34,964 bases of DNA from Frankiales bacterium (GTDB taxonomy: Bacteria; Actinomycetota; Actinomycetes; Mycobacteriales; SCTD01), in contig JAOPWV010000005.1 of assembly GCA_025965475.1 (NCBI GenBank), forward strand, positions 1 to 34,964, given 5' to 3'. The notes below the pieces were generated by a model. The model did no database searches. It was given only the letters and a program-made list of their open reading frames with translations, and was not told the DNA's origin. The stretch's first letter is position 1; every line of letters starts with the position of its first letter. Of this stretch, positions 4,418 to 34,964 are shown one piece after another. The translations under genes were made by a program, and so were the position numbers.

Positions 4418-4438
4418 CGTCCGAGCCCCCACCCGCAG

Positions 4439-4915
4439 ATGGCACACGTCGAGCTCACGCTCAGCCCGCTACCCGCGCACGTACGTACCGTGCGTCTCGT
4501 CGCCGTCGCCGCCGCGCGGCGGGCGGGGCTCGAGGCCGGCCTCGTCGACGAGCTGCGTCTCGCCCTGGGCGAGGCGTGCTCGCGCGCGGTGGCCCTGCAC
4601 GCCCGGCATGCGCCGGACGTGCCGGTCTCGGTGCTCGTCACCGACGGCCCGGACGGGCTCACGGTCGAGGTGAGGGACCGTGGCCCCGCCGCCGGGCCGC
4701 TCTCCGGCAACCTGGCCGAAGAGATGCTCGACAACGCCGACGAGCCCGATGGGCTCGTTGATCCCGATGTGGCTCTGGCGGTCCTGTCCGGACTCGTCGA
4801 CGACTGCGACATCGCGGTGCGCCCGGACGGGACGACGGTCACCATGCGGTGGCCGCTGCCGCCGCCGGTACTCGGTGTCGCCGGCCCCGGATCGACGGCC
4901 GTCGCGCAGGCCTGA
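4439..4915 (+). CDS. Anti-sigma regulatory factor / serine kinase-like ATPase (RsbW type, BldG partner)
   Basis: This 158-aa protein has a GHKL/HATPase fold. It shows a helix with the N-box pattern DELRLALGEACSRAV (residues about 35-49) and a D/G1-box-like VEVRDRGP (about 76-83), followed by a C-terminal segment with GTTVTMRWPL. Members sequester sigma factors and phosphorylate STAS partners. It lies 21 bp downstream of bldG in the same direction, as orf3 does in Streptomyces, so it probably binds BldG. No sigma factor gene is adjacent, so its sigma target lies elsewhere. The second glycine-rich ATP-lid box is weak, so kinase activity is inferred rather than shown. Confidence 0.85.
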   Translation: MAHVELTLSPLPAHVRTVRLVAVAAARRAGLEAGLVDELRLALGEACSRAVALHARHAPDVPVSVLVTDGPDGLTVEVRDRGPAAGPLSGNLAEEMLDNADEPDGLVDPDVALAVLSGLVDDCDIAVRPDGTTVTMRWPLPPPVLGVAGPGSTAVAQA

Positions 4916-24428: not shown

Positions 24429-24450
24429 CTTCACCGCGCGTTCATCTGCC
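24429..24450 (+). promoter_or_regulatory. PHO box upstream of the phospholipase C-type gene
   Basis: Two adjacent 11-nt direct repeats, CTTCACCGCGC (24429-24439) and GTTCATCTGCC (24440-24450), fit the actinobacterial PHO unit G(G/T)TCAYYYRGC, with one mismatch at the first base of unit 1. The site lies 42 bp before ATG 24492, where a PhoP/RegX3-like activator would bind during phosphate starvation. I see no clear -10 between the box and the ATG. Confidence 0.75.
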
Positions 24451-24491: not shown

Positions 24492-25823
24492 ATGGAACTC
24501 ACCCGCCGACAACTGCTCGGCTCCGCCGCAGGCCTGGGCGCCGCCGCCGCGCTCGGACCGGGCGCGGTCGCCGCCCTGGCCGGCACCGCCCCCCGGCCCG
24601 TGCGCTACGCACCGCTCCCCGACCCTCGCAGCAGCGGGCTCGACCACATCGTCGTGGTCTGCATGGAGAACCGGTCGTTCGACCACTACCTCGGCTGGCT
24701 GCCCGGTGCCGACGGGCGGCAGTCCGGCCTGTCCTACGCCGACGCGCACGGCACGCCGCACCGGACGTACCACCTGGCCAACCGCGACGGCTGCGGGATG
24801 AACGACCCCGACCACTCGTACGAGGGCGGGCGGGTGCAGTTCGCGAACGGCGCGATCAACGGCTTCCGCAAGGGCACCAACGACGACTTCGCGCTCGGGT
24901 ACTACGTGGAGAAGGACCTGCCGTTCTACGGGCCGTTGCTCGAGCAGGCCACCACGTTCGACCGGTACTTCAGCTCCATCCTCGGCCCGACGTACCCGAA
25001 CCGCTTCTACACGCACGCCGCCGCGACCGACCGCATCAGCAACGCCTCGACGACCAGCACGTTGCCGACGATCTGGGACCGGCTGGCGGCGGCCGGGGTG
25101 CCGGCCAGGTACTACTTCTCGGACGTCCCGTTCCTCGCCCTGTGGGGCCAGAAGTACCTGTCCATCAGCAACCCGGTGGAGCGCTTCTTCGCGGAGGCGG
25201 CCGCCGGGCAGCTGCCGGCCTTCTCCTACCTCGACCCCTTCTTCGTCGGTGAGGACCAGGGCGGGTCGAACGACGACCACCCGCACGCGGACATCCATCG
25301 CGGCCAGGCGTTCCTGTCGCAGGTAGCCCGGGCCCTGACGACCTCGCCGCTGTGGTCGCGCACCGCGCTGGTGATCACGTACGACGAGTGGGGCGGCTTC
25401 TTCGACCACGTACGGCCCCCGCGGCTGGCGGACGACCACGACACCGGCCCGCACGGCGCCGACGACCATGCGCAGGCCGGCTTCCGGGTCCCGTGCCTGG
25501 TGCTCAGTCCGTTCGCCCGCCGCGGTCATGTCGGCCACCAGGTCTACGACCACAGCTCGATCCTGAAGATGGTCGAGTGGCGGTTCGGCCTGCGGCCGCT
25601 GACGAAGCGGGACCGCGCGGCCCGCAACCTCGCGGAGTCGTTCGACTTCGCACATCCGCGCCCGACCCCTCCCACGCTGCCGGTCGTCGCCGACCCGGGC
25701 CCGCACGTGTGCCAGGTGCCTGCGGCGCAGAACCCGATGGCCGGCGAGGACCCCTACTGGCGTGAGCTCGCGCAGTCCGCGCGGGCCCGTGGCTGGAACG
25801 ACCCGAAGGTAGGTATCCGTTGA
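24492..25823 (+). CDS. Secreted phospholipase C / acid phosphatase family phosphoesterase (Tat substrate)
   Basis: This 443-aa enzyme of the phosphoesterase family PF04185 includes bacterial non-hemolytic phospholipases C and acid phosphatases. The N-terminus TRRQLLGSAAG is a twin-arginine signal, so export is in folded form. The metal and catalytic motifs are visible: IVVVCMENRSFDHYLGWLP with Glu and Asn near residue 58, AITYDEWGGFFDHV (spelled VITYDEWGGFFDHV here) and HVGHQVYDHSSILKMVEWRF. It probably releases phosphate-bearing head groups from phospholipids or phosphoesters outside the cell. A PHO box precedes it. It overlaps the next phosphoesterase gene by four bases (TTGA), so the two are coupled. 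Substrate preference cannot be read from the sequence. Confidence 0.88.
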   Translation: MELTRRQLLGSAAGLGAAAALGPGAVAALAGTAPRPVRYAPLPDPRSSGLDHIVVVCMENRSFDHYLGWLPGADGRQSGLSYADAHGTPHRTYHLANRDGCGMNDPDHSYEGGRVQFANGAINGFRKGTNDDFALGYYVEKDLPFYGPLLEQATTFDRYFSSILGPTYPNRFYTHAAATDRISNASTTSTLPTIWDRLAAAGVPARYYFSDVPFLALWGQKYLSISNPVERFFAEAAAGQLPAFSYLDPFFVGEDQGGSNDDHPHADIHRGQAFLSQVARALTTSPLWSRTALVITYDEWGGFFDHVRPPRLADDHDTGPHGADDHAQAGFRVPCLVLSPFARRGHVGHQVYDHSSILKMVEWRFGLRPLTKRDRAARNLAESFDFAHPRPTPPTLPVVADPGPHVCQVPAAQNPMAGEDPYWRELAQSARARGWNDPKVGIR

Positions 25824-26956
25824 ACCGCCGTCTCCTGGCCGGCTGCGCCGCCGTACTCGGCCTGCTCGTCGCCGCCGGCGCGCCGGCCGGTGCCGCCGCT
25901 GCGGCGGCGCCGGCCCGCGTCGGCCACCTGTTCGTCATCGAGCTGGAGAACAAGGGCTACGACGAGACGTTCGGCCCGACGGCGCCCACCTACCTGGCCC
26001 GCACCCTGCCGTCGCAGGGCGCCCTGCTGACGCAGTACCACGGCACGTCGCACGCCAGCCTGGGCAACTACATCACCCAGATCTCCGGGCAGGCGGCCAA
26101 TCCGCAGACGCAGGCCGACTGCCGGCGCTACGTCGACGTCGTCCCGGGCCTCCCCGCCGCGGACGGGCAGGTCCTCGGCCAGGGGTGTGTCTACCCGCCG
26201 TCGGTGAAGACGCTGCCGGACCAGCTCTCTGCCCAGCGCAAGACCTGGCGCGGCTACATGGAGGACCTCGGCGCGGACCCTGCGCGGTCCAAGGCGCCCT
26301 GTGGAAGTCCGGGCAACCCGGCCCCTCCCGGGGTCACGGACCCGACGCAGAGCGCGACCGCCACGGAGCAGTACGCGGCCCGGCACAACCCGTTCGTCTA
26401 CTTCCACTCGCTGCTCGACAGCGGCGCCTGCGCGCGCAACGTCGGCCCCCTCGGCGGCCTCACGAAGGATCTGCATTCGGCCGCGGCCACCGCCCACTTC
26501 ACCTGGATCACCCCCGACCTGTGCAGCGACGGGCACGACGCGCCCTGTGCCGACGGCCGCCCGGGCGGGCTGACGTCCGCGAACGAGTTCCTGCGGACCT
26601 GGGTGCCCCGGATCACCTCCTCGCCCGCGTTCAAGAAGGACGGGCTGCTGGTCGTCACGTTCGACGAGGCGGAGAACCAGGACGGCTCCTCGTGCTGTGG
26701 CGAGCCGACCGGTCCCAACACCCCGATGCCCGGCATCACCGGCCCGGGTGGCGGGCGGACCGGTGCGGTCCTGCTCTCGCCGTTCATCCGGCCGGGCACC
26801 CGCACCGACGTGCCGTACGACCACTACAGCGCGCTGCGCAGCTACGAGGACCTGCTCGGGATCCGCACCGGCGGCACGGACGGCAAGGGTCACCTCGGCT
26901 ACGCGGCCCGCGCCGGCATGGTCACGTTCGGTAGGGACGTCTTCACAGCGCGGTGA
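25820..26956 (+). CDS. Second secreted phosphoesterase (PF04185 acid phosphatase type), TTG start
   Basis: This 378-aa exported protein has a Sec-type signal (MNRRLLAGCAAVLGLLVAAG, Ala-rich to residue 31). It belongs to the same superfamily as the preceding gene but is shorter and clearly divergent: FVIELENKGYDETFG carries the metal-binding Glu-Asn, YHGTSHASLGNYI the second site, LVVTFDEAEN the third and YDHYSALRSYEDLLGI the fourth. It is closer to acid phosphatases than to phospholipase C. The TTG start overlaps the previous stop by four bases and depends on coupling. It shares the PHO box at 24429-24450. The Gly/Pro-rich insert near 26290-26340 is probably a loop. Confidence 0.83.
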   Translation: MNRRLLAGCAAVLGLLVAAGAPAGAAAAAAPARVGHLFVIELENKGYDETFGPTAPTYLARTLPSQGALLTQYHGTSHASLGNYITQISGQAANPQTQADCRRYVDVVPGLPAADGQVLGQGCVYPPSVKTLPDQLSAQRKTWRGYMEDLGADPARSKAPCGSPGNPAPPGVTDPTQSATATEQYAARHNPFVYFHSLLDSGACARNVGPLGGLTKDLHSAAATAHFTWITPDLCSDGHDAPCADGRPGGLTSANEFLRTWVPRITSSPAFKKDGLLVVTFDEAENQDGSSCCGEPTGPNTPMPGITGPGGGRTGAVLLSPFIRPGTRTDVPYDHYSALRSYEDLLGIRTGGTDGKGHLGYAARAGMVTFGRDVFTAR

Positions 26957-26974
26957 CCCGGGCGTACCGCGGTT

Positions 26975-26996
26975 GTTCACCCCGCCGTCACGGCGA
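26975..26996 (+). promoter_or_regulatory. Candidate PHO box upstream of the GDPD gene
   Basis: Two adjacent 11-nt units, GTTCACCCCGC (26975-26985) and CGTCACGGCGA (26986-26996), match the PHO repeat; the second is weaker. They sit in the 79-bp gap before ATG 27036, so the phosphodiesterase gene may have its own phosphate-starvation promoter. Confidence 0.55.
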
Positions 26997-27035
26997 GGTT
27001 CCGCCCCGGACCGCCGGGCAGGTGAGCGTGGACGC

Positions 27036-27776
27036 ATGGAGATCCTCGGCCACCGCGGCCGGCCCACCCCTGCGACTCCCGAGAACACCCTCGCGTCCGT
27101 CGAGGCCGCCCTGGCCGGCGGCGCGGACGGCGTCGAGGTGGACGTGCGCCTGACCGCCGACGGCATCGCGGTCTGCTGCCACGATGCGGACCTGGTCCGC
27201 GTCGCCGGCGTCGCCCGCGACGTCAGCAGCCTCACCCTCGCCGAGCTCACTGCCGTGCGGGTGGGTGGCCATCCGGTGCCGACGGTCGCCGCGGTCCTGG
27301 CCGCGGTCGGTGCCCGGGGCCGCGTCGTCCTGGACCTCAAGCCCGAACCGCGGCCGGAACGCCTGCTGACCGCGGTCCGGCGCGCCGTCGCGGAGGCCGG
27401 CGTGCGCAGCGGCGAGGCCGTCGACCTGGTGCTGTCGTCGTTCGAGCGGGACATCCTCGAGGTCTGCGCCGCCGAGGCCCCCGAGGTGCCGCGCGCCGTG
27501 ATCATCGGGAGCGACCAGCCGTGCACCCAGCTCATCGCGCAGGCCCTGGCCCGCGGTGACGAGGCCATGCACGTGGAGGCCCGCACGCTGTTCGTCAACC
27601 CGGACCTCGTCGCGGCGGCGCACGCCCGCGGCCTGCTCGTCCGGGCCTGGACCGTCAACCGCCTCATCGACGTCCGGCTCCTGGGGCTGCTCGCTGTCGA
27701 CGCGGTGATCTCCGACGTACCGGACACGGTGCGCGCCCTCGCCGGACGCCCCGCAGCGATGACCAGCGCGGAGTGA
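27036..27776 (+). CDS. Glycerophosphodiester phosphodiesterase
   Basis: This 246-aa TIM-barrel enzyme hydrolyses glycerophosphodiesters to glycerol-3-phosphate and an alcohol. Catalytic and metal residues are visible: His6 and Arg7 in LGHRG, Glu16 in PENT, Glu34 and Asp36 in GVEVDVRLT, and His49 in VCCHD. The C-terminal VRAWTVN segment is also typical. There is no signal peptide, so it is the cytoplasmic (UgpQ-like) form that would process deacylated phospholipids taken up by the cell. This fits downstream of a phospholipase. ATG 27036 starts right at the conserved barrel. A candidate PHO box lies upstream. Its stop is 41 bp before the HAD-like gene. Confidence 0.92.
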   Translation: MEILGHRGRPTPATPENTLASVEAALAGGADGVEVDVRLTADGIAVCCHDADLVRVAGVARDVSSLTLAELTAVRVGGHPVPTVAAVLAAVGARGRVVLDLKPEPRPERLLTAVRRAVAEAGVRSGEAVDLVLSSFERDILEVCAAEAPEVPRAVIIGSDQPCTQLIAQALARGDEAMHVEARTLFVNPDLVAAAHARGLLVRAWTVNRLIDVRLLGLLAVDAVISDVPDTVRALAGRPAAMTSAE

Positions 27777-28613: not shown

Positions 28614-28844
28614 GTGACCCCCGGCACTTCCCCGTTCACCGCCCTGCGTACGACGCTCGCGATCCGACGCTCCGCCCGCGAGGGCCGGCGTCAGCTCGAG
28701 CGTGAGCTGGCCAGCTACGACACACCGGCCGCCCGGGCCGAGCTCGACGCGATCCTCGGGCGTTACTCCGCCGACGAGACCCACGAGGTCCAGGCGATCC
28801 TGAGCCAGCAGGCTGCGGCGCGACTGGCCGGCGCCGCCCGCTGA
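28614..28844 (+). CDS. Small hypothetical helical protein (76 aa)
   Basis: This short, charged, mostly helical protein has no signal or membrane segment. The N-terminal half is basic (TLAIRRSAREGRRQLERELASYD); the C-terminal half has an acidic-amphipathic segment (AELDAILGRYSADETHEVQAIL) and an Ala-rich end. Heptad-like spacing suggests helical bundling. I do not recognise a family with certainty; similar short proteins occur in actinobacteria. GTG 28614 is preceded by GAGGACA. It sits 115 bp after the HAD-like gene and before a PHO box, between phosphate-related genes, but nothing in the sequence shows its role. Confidence 0.55.
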   Translation: MTPGTSPFTALRTTLAIRRSAREGRRQLERELASYDTPAARAELDAILGRYSADETHEVQAILSQQAAARLAGAAR

Positions 28845-28860
28845 GCGAGCGCCACCTGGT

Positions 28861-28893
28861 GGGCACCTGTCGTTCATCAGATGTTCATCGGCT
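28861..28893 (+). promoter_or_regulatory. PHO box upstream of the 76-aa three-helix-bundle protein gene
   Basis: Units GTTCATCAGAT (28872-28882) and GTTCATCGGCT (28883-28893) are direct 11-nt repeats, and the preceding 11 bases GGGCACCTGTC (28861-28871) form a weaker third unit in phase. This is one of the strongest PHO sites in the window. It ends 40 bp before ATG 28934. Confidence 0.8.
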
Positions 28894-28933
28894 CAGCGCC
28901 CACGATCCGCTTCCCGTTGGGCACGCTGTGTGC

Positions 28934-29164
28934 ATGGCGATCGCTGCTGACGAGACCACCCAGTTGCGCCTCGTGGAGCAGCAGCTGCTGCGTGCGTTCG
29001 CGGGCCGGGTGCCCGACGAGGACATCTGCCGGGAGGTCTCGGCGGGGATGAGCGACTTCCGCGACGCCCGCATCCGGACCTTCATCCCGGTGCTCCTGCA
29101 GAAGCGGGTGGCCGACCGGCTGCGCCGGCGGACCTCCGAGCGATCTCTGCGGGGCGCCTCCTAG
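28934..29164 (+). CDS. Three-helix-bundle dimerization-domain-like small protein (76 aa)
   Basis: This 76-aa soluble protein has three predicted helices: TQLRLVEQQLLRAFAG, EDICREVSAGMSDFRD and RIRTFIPVLLQKRVADRLRR. The order and the segment RTFIPVLLQKR-x-A-x-RL match the actinobacterial 'three-helix bundle dimerization domain' proteins, in which a related FVPVLVER-type motif recurs. Function is unknown; the fold suggests a dimeric regulator or adaptor. ATG 28934 is used because the longer frame from 28859 would place the PHO box inside the coding region. There is no clear Shine-Dalgarno sequence. The gene converges on the response-regulator gene 10 bp away and is followed by no obvious hairpin. 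Confidence 0.65.
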   Translation: MAIAADETTQLRLVEQQLLRAFAGRVPDEDICREVSAGMSDFRDARIRTFIPVLLQKRVADRLRRRTSERSLRGAS

Positions 29165-29174
29165 CGGCCTGCTC

Positions 29175-29849
29175 CTAGGGGCGTAGCGCGTATCCGGCCC
29201 GCCGGATCGTGAGCAGATGGCGGGGCCGTGCGGGCTCGAGTTCGATGCGTCGCCGCAGCCGCTTGATCACGTGGTCGAGGTTCTGCGGGTTGCCCGCGTA
29301 GCCCGGCCCCCAGCACTCCTCCATCAGCTCCTGCCGGCGGACCAGGGTGTCGACGCGGCGCAACAGCAGTGACAGGACCGTGAACTCCTGGGCCGGGACG
29401 TGCACCTCGGCGCCTCGGACCGTCACGAGCCGCCGTTGCACCTGCATCCGCACCGGTCCTGCACACAACTCGATCTCCGGCTCCGGCAGCCACGGCCGGC
29501 GCCGCCGCAGCACCGCGTTCATGCGGGCGACGAGCACCGGCAGCGAGTACGGCCGGGTCACGTAGTCGTCGGCACCGAGTTCGAGCAGCAGGACGCGGGA
29601 CACCTCGCTGTCGTCGTCGCTCACGACGATGATCCCGCCCCCGCCCGGGCGTACGCGACGCAGAAAGTCGGCGGGGGCGATGTCGCCGAGCCGGTCGTCC
29701 AGGAGCACGATGTCGTAGCCCTGGGCCAGCTCGTGGAACGCGGCGGCGCCGCTGTCGACGGCCACCGGCGCCGGGTGCTCGGCGCCGATCTCGCGGACCA
29801 GCCGGTGCCGCGTCGCGGGGTCACCGCACGCCACCAGCACTCGGGACAC
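29175..29849 (-). CDS. OmpR/RegX3-type response regulator with non-canonical receiver domain
   Basis: This 224-aa regulator has a receiver domain (1-115) and a winged-helix DNA-binding domain (about 125-224; VPAQEFTVLSLLLRR, NLDHVIKRLRRRIELE, LLTIRRAGYAL). The phosphoacceptor Asp51 in IVLLDDRLG and Ser77 in VVSDDD are present. The usual N-terminal acidic pair (VEDD/VEDE) reads ACGD, and the conserved Lys is Arg99 in DDYVTRPYS. The phosphorylation pocket is therefore altered and control may not depend on a kinase; no histidine kinase gene is adjacent. The GTG at 29849 starts directly before the first beta-strand, with GGGAG upstream. It is divergent from phoU, the position phoP or regX3 often takes, so control of the PHO sites is an inference. 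Confidence 0.85.
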   Translation of the reverse strand: MSRVLVACGDPATRHRLVREIGAEHPAPVAVDSGAAAFHELAQGYDIVLLDDRLGDIAPADFLRRVRPGGGGIIVVSDDDSEVSRVLLLELGADDYVTRPYSLPVLVARMNAVLRRRRPWLPEPEIELCAGPVRMQVQRRLVTVRGAEVHVPAQEFTVLSLLLRRVDTLVRRQELMEECWGPGYAGNPQNLDHVIKRLRRRIELEPARPRHLLTIRRAGYALRP

Positions 29850-29954
29850 GCCACTCCCAGACCCTCGGCGCGCGGCCCGGCCGCACGCGTTGAAGGACCG
29901 AACGTAAGGTCGCGCCGCGCCCATCGCGAGCGCTCCGAGGCCCTGCCGCGGCTT

Positions 29955-29987
29955 CTTCACCCAGGCTTGGTGCGCCGTTCACGTGCC
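29955..29987 (+). promoter_or_regulatory. PHO-box-like array between the response regulator and phoU
   Basis: CTTCACCCAGG (29955-29965) and GTTCACGTGCC (29977-29987) match the PHO unit and are exactly 22 bases apart, with a degenerate unit CTTGGTGCGCC between them, so three units sit in 11-nt phase. The array lies in the 188-bp divergent region and could serve both genes. It ends 22 bp before the phoU -10. Confidence 0.6.
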
Positions 29988-30009
29988 AGCACGCGGGCTC
30001 CGTCAGGAC

Positions 30010-30015
30010 TAGTGT
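30010..30015 (+). promoter_or_regulatory. -10 element of phoU (TAGTGT)
   Basis: TAGTGT fits the TANNNT consensus, 22 bp downstream of the PHO array and 22 bp before ATG 30038. A ribosome site GAGGGG follows at 30027-30032. No good -35 is seen, as expected for an activator-dependent promoter. Confidence 0.45.
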
Positions 30016-30037
30016 TCACCCTTCCAGAGGGGCGGCC

Positions 30038-30697
30038 ATGCGCGACAACTACCACGACCATCTCGACGCGATCGGCGACGACCTCGTCGAGATGAGCAGG
30101 CTCGTCGCTGTGGCCGTACGACAGGCCACCACGGCGCTGGTGACCGCCAACCTCCAGCTGGCCGAGGCCGTCATCGCCGGCGACGAGGTTGTCAACGAGC
30201 TGTACCACTCGGTGGAGTCGCAGGCCTACGACCTGCTGGCCCGGCAGCAGCCGGTGGCCGGCGACCTCCGCGTCCTCGTGACGAGCCTGCGCATGGTGGT
30301 GGACCTCGAACGGGCCGGCGACTACGCGGTGCACCTGGCCAAGATCGCCCGGCGCCGGCATCCGGCCTCCGCCGTGCCGGCCGAGCTGATCGACACCATC
30401 GTCGCCATGGGGCAGACCGCGGAGCGGATCGCGAACAAGGCGGGCCGGGTCATCGCCACCCGGGACATCGACCTGGCGCGCGAGCTGCTCGGCGACGACG
30501 ACGCGATGGACATGCTCCAGCGCCGGCTCTTCACGATCATGCTCGGCGGCGGCGGCGACCACGGCACCGAGGCCGCGATCGACGTGACCCTGGCCGGGCG
30601 CTACTACGAGCGGCTGGCCGACCACGCCGTGGCGGTCGCCCGGCGGGTGACCTACCTGGTCACCGGCGAGCACCGCGACGAGCCGGCGCTCGACTGA
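30038..30697 (+). CDS. phoU: Phosphate signalling regulator PhoU
   Basis: This 219-aa protein is made of two PhoU-type three-helix bundles in tandem. Each repeat has its metal-binding region: ADLRVLVTSLRM (here GDLRVLVTSLRMVVDLERAGDYAVHLA) in the first, and a matching YYERLADHAVAVARRVTYLVTGE in the second. PhoU links the PstSCAB transporter with the phosphate two-component system and damps the PHO response when phosphate is ample; it acts at the membrane on the cytoplasmic side. It lies divergent from the response regulator and upstream of pstS, a normal actinobacterial neighbourhood. Length is normal. The start is ATG 30038. Confidence 0.95.
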   Translation: MRDNYHDHLDAIGDDLVEMSRLVAVAVRQATTALVTANLQLAEAVIAGDEVVNELYHSVESQAYDLLARQQPVAGDLRVLVTSLRMVVDLERAGDYAVHLAKIARRRHPASAVPAELIDTIVAMGQTAERIANKAGRVIATRDIDLARELLGDDDAMDMLQRRLFTIMLGGGGDHGTEAAIDVTLAGRYYERLADHAVAVARRVTYLVTGEHRDEPALD

Positions 30698-30773
30698 CCC
30701 GCCGGGTCGCCGCGTCGCCGTGATCGGGCGAAACGGGCGAACCGGTGCTGACGGTGACCGTCCGCCTCGTCTC

Positions 30774-30795
30774 GTTCACTCGTCGTTCATGTTCC
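30774..30795 (+). promoter_or_regulatory. PHO box of the pst operon
   Basis: Two 11-nt direct repeats, GTTCACTCGTC (30774-30784) and GTTCATGTTCC (30785-30795), match the PHO unit. A -10-like TAGCGT lies at 30823-30828, so an activator bound here would sit just upstream of the -35 region. This is the expected control point for phosphate-starvation induction of pstSCAB. Confidence 0.82.
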
Positions 30796-30822
30796 CAGCA
30801 CCGACGAGTCATGCGCGCTGCC

Positions 30823-30828
30823 TAGCGT
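30823..30828 (+). promoter_or_regulatory. -10 element of pstS (TAGCGT)
   Basis: TAGCGT, 27 bp downstream of the PHO box, would give a 5' leader of about 75 nt before GTG 30909. The leader shows no riboswitch-like fold that I can support. AAGGAAGG at 30894-30901 is the ribosome binding site. Confidence 0.45.
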
Positions 30829-30908
30829 CGTCCGCGAAGTCCACACCGCATGACGGCGCCTCCGCCGGCCCGGCGGCAGTGACCCTCACCGACAAGGAAG
30901 GCCCACCT

Positions 30909-32030
30909 GTGATGAACACCCGGACCGGCGCGCTCGCCGGCCTCGTGCTCACCTCGGCGCTCGCACTGAGCGCCTGCGGCAGTGACAACAACACGACCAC
31001 CACCCCGGCCGCGAGCGGTGGCGCCTCCGCCGGCGCCGCGTCGAACATCACCTGCGCCAAGGGCAGCATCACCGCCGCTGGCTCCAGCGCGCAGAAGAAC
31101 GCCATGGACGAGTGGATCAAGGCCTACCAGAGCGCCTGCTCCGGGGCCACGATCAACTACCAGCCGGTCGGTTCCGGCGCCGGCGTGCAGCAGTTCATCG
31201 CCGGCACCGTCGACTTCGCGGGCTCCGACTCCGCCCTCAAGCCGGCCGAGCACCCGCAGGCCGACGCCCGCTGCAAGACCGGCAAGGCGATCGACCTGCC
31301 CATGGTCACCGGCCCCATCGCGATCGCCTACAACCTGTCCGGCGTGACCGGCCTCGTGCTGGACGCCCCGACGATCGCCAAGATGTTCTCGGGCAAGATC
31401 ACCACGTGGAACGACCCGGCCATCGCCGCGCTCAACTCCGGCGCCAAGCTGCCGTCGGCCAAGATCCAGGCGTTCCACCGCTCGGACGAGTCCGGCACGA
31501 CCGACAACGTGCAGAAGTACCTCACGGCCGCCGCGCCCAAGGACTGGACCTTCGGGGTCGGCAAGAAGTTCAACGCCCCCGGTGGCCAGAGCGCCAAGGG
31601 CTCGGACGGTGTCACGCAGGCCGTCAAGTCGACCGAGGGTGCCGTGACGTACACCGAGCTGTCGTTCGCCAAGAACGCCTCGCTCGGCATCGCCAAGCTC
31701 GACACGGGAGCCGCGAGCCCGGTGGAGCTCACGACGGACAGCGCCGCCAAGGCCGTGGAGGCCGCGACCGTCGCCAGCTCCGGTGCCAACGACCTGACCC
31801 TCAAGCTGGACTACGCCACCAAGGCCGAGGGCGCGTACCCGCTTATCCTGGTGACGTACGAGATCGCCTGTGAGACGGGGACCCCGGCCGACAAGCTCGC
31901 GCTGGTCAAGGGCTTCCTCGGCTACACCTCCGGTGCGGACGGCCAGAAGATCCTGACCGACCTCGGGTACGCCCCACTGCCTGAGACCATCCGGAGCAAG
32001 GTGGCCACCGCCGTCCAGGCGCTGGCCTAG
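30909..32030 (+). CDS. pstS: Phosphate ABC transporter substrate-binding lipoprotein PstS
   Basis: This 373-aa lipoprotein has a signal peptide ending in the lipobox LSAC (Cys23), followed by an Asn/Thr/Ala-rich linker. The phosphate pocket motifs are present: ITAAGSSAQKNAMDEW, GSGAGVQQFIAGTVDFAGSD and HRSDESGTTDNVQKYL. It captures phosphate outside the membrane for PstCA. GTG 30909 lies seven bases after AAGGAAGG; ATG 30912 is the next codon and is also possible. The PHO box 114 bp upstream explains its induction. The stop is TAG, followed by a strong hairpin before pstC, which would allow more PstS than permease to be made. Confidence 0.95.
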   Translation: MMNTRTGALAGLVLTSALALSACGSDNNTTTTPAASGGASAGAASNITCAKGSITAAGSSAQKNAMDEWIKAYQSACSGATINYQPVGSGAGVQQFIAGTVDFAGSDSALKPAEHPQADARCKTGKAIDLPMVTGPIAIAYNLSGVTGLVLDAPTIAKMFSGKITTWNDPAIAALNSGAKLPSAKIQAFHRSDESGTTDNVQKYLTAAAPKDWTFGVGKKFNAPGGQSAKGSDGVTQAVKSTEGAVTYTELSFAKNASLGIAKLDTGAASPVELTTDSAAKAVEAATVASSGANDLTLKLDYATKAEGAYPLILVTYEIACETGTPADKLALVKGFLGYTSGADGQKILTDLGYAPLPETIRSKVATAVQALA

Positions 32031-32113: not shown

Positions 32114-32137
32114 TAGGCTGATGCGGAGGAGGTGGGC

Positions 32138-33205
32138 GTGAGCGAGCGAATGCTGCCGCCGGACCGCGAGCTCGACCCGCAGGTCCGCAGCACGGGTACG
32201 ACGGTGGTGGCCGGTGACGACGCCCGGCTGCCGGGCGCACCCGGTGGGGGGCTGCTCCCGCGTACGGGTGGCCGCTCCTCGGTCCGTCGAGGCGACCGCG
32301 TCTTCCGTGGCCTGTCGGTGGGCGCCGGCGTGGGCCTGCTGGGGATCATCGTCGCGATCGGGGTGTTCCTGGTCTACCGCGCCATCCCGGCGCTGCAGGC
32401 CGACAAGGGGAACTTCCTCACCGACCAGAACTGGGATCCGAACGCGCTCCCGCCGGTCTTCGGCATCGTCGCCCTCGCCTTCGGGACGATCCTGTCCTCA
32501 CTCATCGCCCTGGTGATCGCCTTCCCGGTCGCGATCGGCGTGGCGCTGTTCATCTCGCACTACGCGCCGCGCCGGCTGGCCGGGCCGCTGGGCTACGTCA
32601 TCGACCTGCTCGCCGCGGTGCCCAGCGTCGTCTACGGCCTGTGGGGGATCTTCTTCCTCAACGACGTGATCAAGGGCCTGTCGGCGTTCCTGCACGACTA
32701 CCTGGGCTTCATCCCCCTGTTCGCCGCCGACGGCATCTACGGCCGCTCGATCCTGCTGGCCAGCGTCGTTCTCGCGATCATGATTCTGCCGATCATCGCC
32801 TCCCTGTCGCGGGAGGTCTTCCTGCAGGTGCCCGCCGCCAACCAGGAGGCGGCGCTTGCCCTGGGGGCGACCCGCTGGGAGATGATCCGCATCGCGGTGC
32901 TGCCCTTCGGCAAGCCCGGCATCATCGGGGCCACCATGCTCGGCCTCGGCCGCGCACTCGGCGAGACGATCGCGGTGGCCCTGGTGCTGTCGCCCGCCTT
33001 CATCGTCAGCCTGCGGATCCTCGAGCCGGGCCAGGGCAACACGATCGCCGCGAACATCGCCCTCGGCTTCGGTGAGGCGACGGCGAACGGGCGCGGCGCG
33101 CTCATCGCCTCCGGCCTGGTGCTGTTCATCATCACCCTGGTCGTCAACGTCATCGCCCGTGCCGTGATCTACCGGCGCAAGGAGTTCACGGGGGGCACGC
33201 TGTGA
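32138..33205 (+). CDS. pstC: Phosphate ABC transporter permease PstC
   Basis: This protein of about 355 aa is one of the two membrane subunits of the phosphate importer. A long cytoplasmic N-terminus (about 60 residues, Gly/Arg-rich) precedes the first helix; the remaining helices form the permease core. The EAA-type loop contacting PstB is NQEAALALGATRWEMIRIAVLP. The segments LLAAVPSVVYGLWGIFFL and GRALGETIAVALV are typical. GTG 32138 is favoured because GGAGGAGG (32125-32132) then lies at the right distance; GTG 32132 overlaps that site. The 3' end overlaps pstA by four bases (GTGA). Confidence 0.94.
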   Translation: MSERMLPPDRELDPQVRSTGTTVVAGDDARLPGAPGGGLLPRTGGRSSVRRGDRVFRGLSVGAGVGLLGIIVAIGVFLVYRAIPALQADKGNFLTDQNWDPNALPPVFGIVALAFGTILSSLIALVIAFPVAIGVALFISHYAPRRLAGPLGYVIDLLAAVPSVVYGLWGIFFLNDVIKGLSAFLHDYLGFIPLFAADGIYGRSILLASVVLAIMILPIIASLSREVFLQVPAANQEAALALGATRWEMIRIAVLPFGKPGIIGATMLGLGRALGETIAVALVLSPAFIVSLRILEPGQGNTIAANIALGFGEATANGRGALIASGLVLFIITLVVNVIARAVIYRRKEFTGGTL

Positions 33206-34248
33206 CCGTCCTGACGGCCGGCGCACCCGTGACGCTGCGCCGCGGCCACCTGTCCGCCTGGGTCCTCGGAGCCGTCGGCGTCGTCGTCCTGCTCGTGACC
33301 GCGGGCCTGTTCGCCGTCACGCCGCTGGAGGGCACGGCCGGCTTCGTCATCGTGGCCGCGGCGCTGTTCCTGGCAGCCCAGGGTGTCGTGTCGACGGTCG
33401 TCGAGGGCCGCCGGCGCGCGATCGACCGCACGGTCACCAGTGCCGTCGTCTTCGCCTTCCTGCTCGCCCTCGTACCGCTCGTGTCGGTCCTGACGTACGC
33501 CCTGCGCCAGGGTGCGCACCGCTTCGACGTCGAGTTCTTCACGCACTCGCTGCGCAACATCGGGGCGCGCGACGCTGGTGGCGGCGCGTATCACGCGCTG
33601 ATCGGCACCCTGCAGCAGGTGCTCATCACCACCGTCATCTCGGTCCCGTTCGGCCTGCTCGTCGCCGTCTACATCGTCGAGTACGGCCGGGGCCGCCTGG
33701 CCGCCGCGATCCGCTTCTTCGTCGACGTCATGACCGGTATCCCATCGATCGTCGCCGGCCTGTTCGTCCTGTCGTTCTGGACGCTCGGGCTGGGCCAGGG
33801 CTTCTCCGGCTTCGCCGCGTCGCTCGCGCTGACCGTCCTGATGCTCCCGGTCGTCGTACGCGCCTCGGAGGAGATGCTCAAGCTCGTGCCGGACTCGCTG
33901 CGCGAGGCGAGCTTCGCCCTCGGCGTGCCCCGGTGGAAGACCATCCTGCGCATCGTGCTGCCGACCGCCCTGCCCGGGATCGTCACCGGCGTGATGCTCG
34001 CGATCGCCCGCGTCACCGGCGAGACGGCCCCCGTGCTGCTCACCGCGTTCGGTGCCGCGTCGATCAACACCGACCCGTTCCACGGGCCGCAGTCGTCCCT
34101 GCCGCTGCTCGTGTTCCAGCAGGCACAGGACGCACAACAGACCGCGGTGAACCGGGCCTGGACCGCCGCCCTCACACTGATCCTTGTGGTGATGGTGCTC
34201 AACCTGGTCGCCCGGCTGCTCACCCGACGTAACCGCCTCGAGCGTTAG
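33202..34248 (+). CDS. pstA: Phosphate ABC transporter permease PstA
   Basis: This 348-aa second permease subunit has a longer N-terminus than E. coli PstA, with two extra hydrophobic helices (LGAVGVVVLLVTAGLFAV and TAGFVIVAAALFLAAQGVV), usual in actinobacteria. The core shows VDVMTGIPSIVAGLFVLSFW, the EAA-type loop LREASFALGVPRWKTILRIV and ARVTGETAPVLLTAFG. GTG 33202 overlaps the pstC stop, and pstB starts 12 bp after its TAG. It forms the membrane channel with PstC. Confidence 0.94.
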   Translation: MTVLTAGAPVTLRRGHLSAWVLGAVGVVVLLVTAGLFAVTPLEGTAGFVIVAAALFLAAQGVVSTVVEGRRRAIDRTVTSAVVFAFLLALVPLVSVLTYALRQGAHRFDVEFFTHSLRNIGARDAGGGAYHALIGTLQQVLITTVISVPFGLLVAVYIVEYGRGRLAAAIRFFVDVMTGIPSIVAGLFVLSFWTLGLGQGFSGFAASLALTVLMLPVVVRASEEMLKLVPDSLREASFALGVPRWKTILRIVLPTALPGIVTGVMLAIARVTGETAPVLLTAFGAASINTDPFHGPQSSLPLLVFQQAQDAQQTAVNRAWTAALTLILVVMVLNLVARLLTRRNRLER

Positions 34249-34260
34249 GACGAACCCGGC

Positions 34261-34964
34261 ATGGCAAAGCGCATCGAGGCGATCGATCTGGACGCCTACT
34301 ACGGCGGCTTCCGGGCGATCGAGGGCGTGTCGATGGTCATCGAGCCCAAGACCGTCACGGCCCTCATCGGGCCGTCCGGCTGCGGGAAGTCGACGTTCCT
34401 GCGGACGCTCAACCGGATGCACGAGGTGCTGCCCGGCGCCCGCGTCTCCGGTCGCCTGCTGCTCGACGACGAGGACATCTACGGCCCCGGGGTCGACCCG
34501 GTCGGCGTACGCCGCGCGATCGGCATGGTCTTCCAGCGGCCCAACCCGTTCCCGACGATGTCCATCTACGACAACGTCGTGGCCGGGCTGCGGCTCAACG
34601 GGACCAAGCGCAAGGCCGAGCTCGACGTCGCGGCGGAGCGCTCCCTCAAGGGCGCGAACCTCTGGACCGAGGTGAAGGACCGGCTCAACAAGCCGGGGGC
34701 CAGCCTGTCCGGCGGGCAGCAGCAGCGGCTGTGCATCGCCCGGGCCATCGCGGTCGAGCCGCAGGTCCTGCTGATGGACGAGCCGTGCTCGGCGCTGGAC
34801 CCGATCTCGACCCTCGCTATCGAGGACCTGATGACGTAGCTCAAGGACCGCTTCACGATCGTGATCGTCACGCACAATATGCAGCAGGCCGCGCGGGTCT
34901 CCGACACCACCGGTTTCTTCACCATCGACGGCCCCGGCAGCCCCGGCCGGCTGGTCGAGATCGA
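34261..34964 (+). CDS. pstB: Phosphate ABC transporter ATPase PstB, with in-frame TAG at codon 193; 3' end outside window
   Basis: This ATPase drives the phosphate importer. Visible motifs are Walker [10 protein letters not shown] (37-45), Q-loop [16 protein letters not shown], signature [16 protein letters not shown] and Walker [14 protein letters not shown]. The frame then meets TAG at 34837-34839 (after IEDLMT) and continues open to the window end with [20 protein letters not shown], the conserved end of PstB that includes the switch His. Relatives have Glu where the TAG stands, so one base change (GAG to TAG) explains it. If the stop is real, the 192-aa product lacks the H-loop and would be inactive. 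The gene lies 12 bp after pstA. Confidence 0.9.
34837..34839 (+). other. In-frame amber (TAG) codon inside pstB
   Basis: The sequence reads ATG ACG TAG CTC AAG GAC CGC (M-T-stop-L-K-D-R). Family members read LMTELKDRF or close variants, so a GAG codon is expected. The frame stays open for the remaining 125 bases of the window and codes for conserved PstB sequence. Like the codon in the helicase gene, it may be an error, a fresh null mutation or readthrough. Confidence 0.92.

Follow-up and report, generated by a model that had tools for sequence, protein, structure and literature searches.

The regulator encoded beside phoU2 in the window, by which we mean the whole stretch of 34,964 nucleotides of Frankiales bacterium DNA analyzed here, appears to be a RegX3-like factor with a pseudo-receiver, which would function without classical phosphorylation control and tune the local phoU2-pst locus. 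Taken as a whole, this reading has in our estimate about an even chance of being correct. An earlier sequence-only reading had proposed an orphan, non-canonical regulator of a phosphate locus, controlled by a signal other than phosphorylation and possibly through Cys8; the orphan status and the phosphate context stand, and activity independent of phosphorylation is probable judging from the pocket residues, but control through Cys8 is not sustained.

The frame of this regulator, P0001, is translated from 29849 to 29178, with the stop codon extending to 29175, and reads VSRVLVACGDPATR...IVLLDDRLGD...IIVVSDDDSE...ADDYVTRPY. Its G+C content by codon position is 0.80/0.46/0.92, and a putative ribosome site, GGGAG, was recognized by eye before the GTG. 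The architecture, a receiver fold followed by a winged-helix Trans_reg_C domain, places it in the OmpR/PhoB class. Pfam recovers the latter domain (PF00486) with 62.3 bits and the receiver (PF00072, Response_reg) with 32.1 bits against a cut-off of 30.2, as compared to 103.1 bits for the RegX3 of the same genome. The AlphaFold model, computed from an alignment with 29 relatives obtained in the genome-contig scan, displays an OmpR-type receiver and a winged helix at a mean pLDDT of 86; its best full-length fold match is PrrA (Z 25.0, rmsd 2.5, 220 aligned), with MtrA (Z 24.0, rmsd 3.3, 219 aligned) as a further top match.

In the nomenclature of PMC12632262, the pocket of P0001 comprises Cys8 (DD1), Gly9 (DD2), Asp51 (D), Gly55 (D+4), Ser77 (T), Asp78 (T+1), Tyr96 (K-3), Arg99 (K) and Tyr101 (K+2). 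The translation and the alignment thereby confirm what had been noted before, namely a regulator adjoining phoU with an altered phosphorylation pocket, in which Cys8-Gly9 stands in place of the acidic pair, Asp51 is retained and Arg99 occupies the position of the conserved Lys; additionally, they reveal the replacement of Thr by Ser77, of the T+1 Ala by Asp78 and of the D+4 Pro by Gly55. The alignment has 84 rows (P0001, its counterpart P0002 from a congeneric genome, and 82 others), drawn from 40 of the 80 loci kept in the contig scan and from loci found in genome searches. With P0001 and P0002 set aside, all rows but one (81 of 82) carry canonical residues at DD1, DD2, D, D+4, T+1 and K, with Glu or Asp at DD1, Asp at DD2, an Asp acceptor, Ala or Gly at T+1 and Lys at the lysine position; the single exception, L178, is also a pseudo-receiver. 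Ser at the T position is seen in 10 of these 82. With three of the five key phosphotransfer positions lost and a domain score above the Pfam cut-off, P0001 falls within the pseudo-receiver (PsR) definition of PMC12632262, and it does not classify as a canonical phosphorylatable regulator, the acidic pair and the Lys being gone while Asp51 and Ser77 are present. The same review reports that K is commonly replaced by Arg and D by Glu, and that small residues at T+1 are lost (PMC12632262). The motif GADDY-x-TRP, sought with CGN codons for Arg, was recovered from 3 of the 397 order genomes searched, where it belongs to P0001, to its congeneric counterpart and to one unrelated regulator. The last of these, a GADDYMTRP protein from G079, was dropped as having the canonical Glu-Asp and belonging to another regulator type.

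The nearest kin of P0001 in the genomes searched are RegX3 proteins, at about 46% identity (46% to the copy in its own genome), and its top PDB sequence match is likewise RegX3 (PDB: 2oqr; E 9.8e-41). In the tree it is placed inside the RegX3 clade (96/93) on a very long branch. Since no SenX3 is linked to it and its pocket is non-canonical, we consider it a RegX3-like paralog rather than RegX3 itself. No close ortholog of P0001 was detected in 24 genomes of the family, in 397 of the order, in 394 of the class at E<=1e-47, in one genome-contig scan (80 of 586 confirmed loci kept, all at 46% or less), or among 550 plasmid records, all below 60% identity; a search of the 397 order genomes for a close ortholog of P0002 was equally negative. 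The comparison of orthologs that had been suggested for ACGD and Arg99 thus yielded no true ortholog, and canonical residues at these sites were seen only in RegX3 paralogs and other regulators.

A canonical kinase/regulator pair, which the earlier reading had suggested seeking, is indeed encoded elsewhere in the same genome (G000), where contig C31 carries regX3, senX3 (with HisKA and HATPase_c domains) and a divergent phoU of its own in the canonical arrangement. Its presence implies that P0001 is an extra paralog and not the main phosphate regulator of the genome. The reported lack of an adjacent kinase gene also holds, as the neighbors encode a small three-helix-bundle protein and PhoU (Table 1); the sole kinase-type ATPase domain among the subset of window ORFs scanned is a stand-alone HATPase_c_2 protein at 4418-4912, 24 kb away. 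Frames similar to the small protein are found near pst in two congeners, G001 (37%) and G002 (65%). The two phoU copies of the genome, phoU2 and the one on C31, share 73% identity, and the window pstB is the only pstB of the genome at E<=1e-70. The in-frame TAG in this gene follows 192 codons (34837-34839), after which the frame remains open and PstB-like to the contig end; it may stem from faulty sequencing or indicate that the Pst transporter is broken. A pstB match in G019 also contains one TAG. Tetranucleotide profiles of the window halves agree with other loci of the genome at 0.88 and 0.91 and with one another at 0.89, a value that a foreign set (G018) also reaches with the second half. 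Contamination of contig C87 is disfavored by these correlations, by the single-copy pstB, and by G001, which also combines a canonical pair with a degenerate regulator. Further upstream, 24492-27773 encodes two PF04185 phosphoesterase-family proteins and a glycerophosphodiester phosphodiesterase, which together with pst and phoU constitute a phosphorus-scavenging island.

Table 1. Features of the regulator-phoU2-pst locus, in window coordinates
Feature	Position	Strand	Details
Exact PHO-type direct repeat	28872..28887	+	upstream of small gene 28934-29164
Small three-helix-bundle-domain protein, convergent with P0001	28934..29164	+	NF046112; DUF3562 below cut-off
RegX3-like OmpR/PhoB-type regulator P0001, pseudo-receiver	29175..29849	-	224 aa, GTG start
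Regulator/phoU2 divergent intergenic region	29850..30037	.	two lone GTTCA half-sites
phoU2, PhoU domain	30038..30697	+	domain scan, phoU comparison
Exact PHO-type 11-bp direct repeat GTTCAN6GTTCA	30774..30789	+	upstream of pstS
pstS, phosphate-binding protein	30858..32030	+	PBP_like_2; homologous frames in pst loci of relatives
pstC	32132..33205	+	homologous frame in pst loci of relatives; named by gene order
pstA	33202..34248	+	BPD_transp_1, homologous frame; named by gene order
pstB, in-frame TAG	34261..34839	+	PstB-like sequence beyond stop

With GTTCA taken, as we assume, to be the PHO repeat unit, the exact repeat GTTCAN6GTTCA occurs three times in the whole genome, and two of these copies lie in the window. 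When one mismatch is allowed the window contains four repeats against 0.54 expected, a number reached in none of 100 shuffles; one such 1-mismatch repeat, at 24429, precedes the first PF04185 gene. Direct repeats of 11 nt are described for Streptomyces PHO boxes (PMC7866108). At up to one mismatch, repeats are present in the phoU/senX3 junctions of C31 and of two congeners, G002 and G003, and upstream of senX3 in the third, G001, where a further 1-mismatch repeat (L211:8262) lies roughly 300 bp upstream of P0002. In contrast, the region between P0001 and phoU2 has no PHO direct repeat at up to two mismatches, the only elements being half-sites at 29977 and 30014 with a spacing of 37. This difference from the senX3-side junctions suggests that phoU2 might no longer be under direct RegX3 control. 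Scans of 28800-30900 for sigma-70 promoters and terminators returned none, and a repeat search of the regulator/phoU2 intergenic region recovered short imperfect repeats only.

We envisage that the receiver of a RegX3-like OmpR/PhoB factor became a pseudo-receiver: with the acidic Mg2+-binding pair gone, Asp78 at T+1 and Arg99 in place of Lys, normal phosphoryl uptake would not be expected, and Asp51 and Arg99 probably form a fixed charge pair. The activity of P0001 would then be set by the amount made, or by partners, rather than by a kinase. For pseudo-receivers, PMC12632262 lists constitutive activity, control through the level of expression and interaction with partners as possible mechanisms. 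The divergent orientation of P0001 relative to phoU2, its position next to pst and its altered recognition helix point to local action, most likely on the phoU2 promoter or its own in the intervening region, and P0001 may thus tune the Pho response locally, in addition to an intact SenX3-RegX3 system. Among the options considered, control of the local phoU2-pst locus through the level of expression appears the most likely, the main rivals being partnership with RegX3 and decay, and some residual chemistry through the retained Asp51, Ser77 and Tyr96 is possible.

The losses extend well outside the pocket. Among sites with at least 95% conservation across 73 RegX3 rows, P0001 keeps 35 of 58 in the receiver and 27 of 54 in the DNA-binding domain, and in the recognition-helix stretch the own-genome RegX3 reads TKTLDVHVKRLR but P0001 PQNLDHVIKRLR. 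The RegX3-conserved Asp84 is also lost, and the conserved alpha5 residues Arg104 and Glu105 are Pro and Val. Given the 27 of 54 domain sites kept, DNA binding could be weakened, and the altered alpha5 residues may have weakened the usual dimer. Such losses in both domains (23 of 58 and 27 of 54 sites), along with the very long branch, the lack of a close ortholog in the 24 family genomes and the in-frame stop in the neighboring pstB, would be consistent with a former RegX3-like paralog that is decaying under relaxed selection and has no function. However, decay is rendered rather unlikely by the 224-codon open frame with its strong coding composition, by the confidently predicted fold, by GGGAG as a plausible ribosome site ahead of the start codon, and by G001, in which a similarly degenerate regulator with an intact frame adjoins phoU. 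Partnership would entail an alpha4-beta5-alpha5 heterodimer that changes or blocks RegX3 action at PHO boxes, in the manner of WhiI with BldM. This is compatible with the RegX3-like kinship, with the coexistence of a canonical RegX3 in both species and with the exact PHO repeats beside the locus (two of the three in the genome), and it has a precedent in the WhiI-BldM pair, WhiI being without the Lys and one acidic residue (PMC4125116). As P0001 is missing the RegX3-conserved Asp84, Arg104 and Glu105, and as its divergent recognition helix makes binding to common PHO boxes doubtful, we accord the heterodimer only a low probability.

Two further alternatives retain a regulated switch within P0001 itself. 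A redox switch would more probably involve Cys129, at the junction of the receiver and the DNA-binding domain, than Cys8, by analogy to Cys128 of RitR. P0001 is the sole row of the 84 with a Cys in the linker stretch (codon 129, window 29463-29465); RitR, which diverged from CovR, uses its linker Cys128 (PMC5965902), and the full-length fold matches include RitR mutants (PDB: 5u8k; Z 19.7, rmsd 4.2, 221 aligned). Nevertheless, the congeneric regulator has Asp, Asp and Val at the sites of Cys8, Cys129 and Cys179, and PMC5965902 reports a Cys in 28% of regulator linkers, making this switch very improbable. The Cys8 version raised earlier is unsupported because this residue is not common to the congeneric regulator, and none of the other 82 aligned rows has a Cys there. 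Weak phosphorylation of Asp51 by SenX3 or another kinase would be in keeping with the retention of Asp51 and Tyr96 and with Ser77 as a permitted variant of Thr (10 of 82 rows), but the loss of both metal ligands, of the Lys and of the small T+1 residue leaves it scarcely credible.

P0001 joins a known class of atypical OmpR/PhoB regulators. A literature search, as far as the accessible texts extend, returned no publication describing a pseudo-receiver regulator that neighbors phoU. RegX3 of the SenX3-RegX3 system, the best sequence match, shares with it the two-domain architecture and the phosphate-locus context, but combines a linked kinase with a Glu-Asp, Asp, Thr-Ala, Lys pocket, whereas the pocket of P0001 reads Cys-Gly, Asp, Ser-Asp, Arg, its recognition helix is altered and no kinase accompanies it. 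The OmpR-type regulators GlnR, ChxR, HP1043 and CosR are described as phosphorylation-free (PMC12632262; see also PMC3960148, PMC5253667 and PMC3139631) and have different regulons; in GlnR, to which P0001 is likened by description while its best sequence matches are RegX3, the Asp is said to matter for dimer formation (PMC12632262). WhiI of Streptomyces is also an orphan with a degenerate pocket and acts with a second regulator, BldM (PMC4125116), but its role is developmental. RitR of Streptococcus pneumoniae, as described in PMC5965902, resembles P0001 in its kept fold, linker Cys and derivation from a canonical regulator; it differs in being without the Asp and in repressing iron uptake, and the linker Cys of P0001 is absent in the congener. 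The on-off switching of bacterial pseudo-receivers is called a mystery in PMC12632262, and PhoU is a known modulator of SenX3 (PMC12301784). The occurrence of P0001 beside PhoU in a genome with canonical RegX3 allows two paralogs of one pathway, one phosphorylated and the other presumably not, to be compared directly.

Among three genomes of the same genus, G001 has a phoU-pstSCAB locus like that of the window, with a pstB 89% identical. Its regulator, P0002, lies directly upstream of phoU in the same strand sense, the TGA ending 2 nt before the phoU ATG as read by eye, whereas P0001 is divergent from phoU2. The P0002 pocket has Asp-Thr, Glu for the acceptor Asp, Ser-Arg and Arg for Lys, with Gly at D+4; hence the two proteins have in common the K to R and T to S changes, the Gly at D+4, a bulky charged T+1 residue and the pst-phoU location, at identities of 32% in the receiver and 26% in the DNA-binding domain. 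In the tree, which carries a long-branch warning, P0002 falls outside the RegX3 clade and P0001 inside it, and constraining the two to one clade gives a p-AU of 0.17, a value that neither establishes nor rejects their monophyly. A common origin is plausible, and a parallel origin may also apply. The pst-linked phoU genes of the window and G001 cluster together (91/92), apart from the senX3-side phoU genes of G000, G002 and G003, and in both G000 and G001 a canonical RegX3 coexists with the degenerate regulator. In G002 and G003, phoU lies beside senX3-regX3, near another pst cluster; the phoU stretches read contain no regulator besides regX3 in G003 and, in G002, one additional regulator frame, located beyond phoU, whose receiver scores at full strength. 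It is conceivable, if distinctly doubtful, that the pst-phoU locus of the genus has its own kinase-free pseudo-receiver Pho regulator, which would read PhoU/Pst status directly beside SenX3-RegX3 and whose translation would, in one species, probably be coupled to that of phoU, which it abuts.

In the sister genus g2, a second RegX3-like pseudo-receiver protein is present in 6 of 7 genomes at 69-80% identity (L253:7111-7869 in G016; L258-L262), and no regulator was seen beside the ppk gene of G000. Were the genus-wide reading true, this ppk-side protein would show RegX3-like copies repeatedly turning into kinase-free phosphate regulators. In the two g2 loci read (G016 and G010) it is divergent from ppk-ppx and near gdpd. 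Its acceptor Asp is replaced by His in the aligned row, and its DNA-binding domain is largely retained, the single row tested having kept 39 of the 54 conserved sites.
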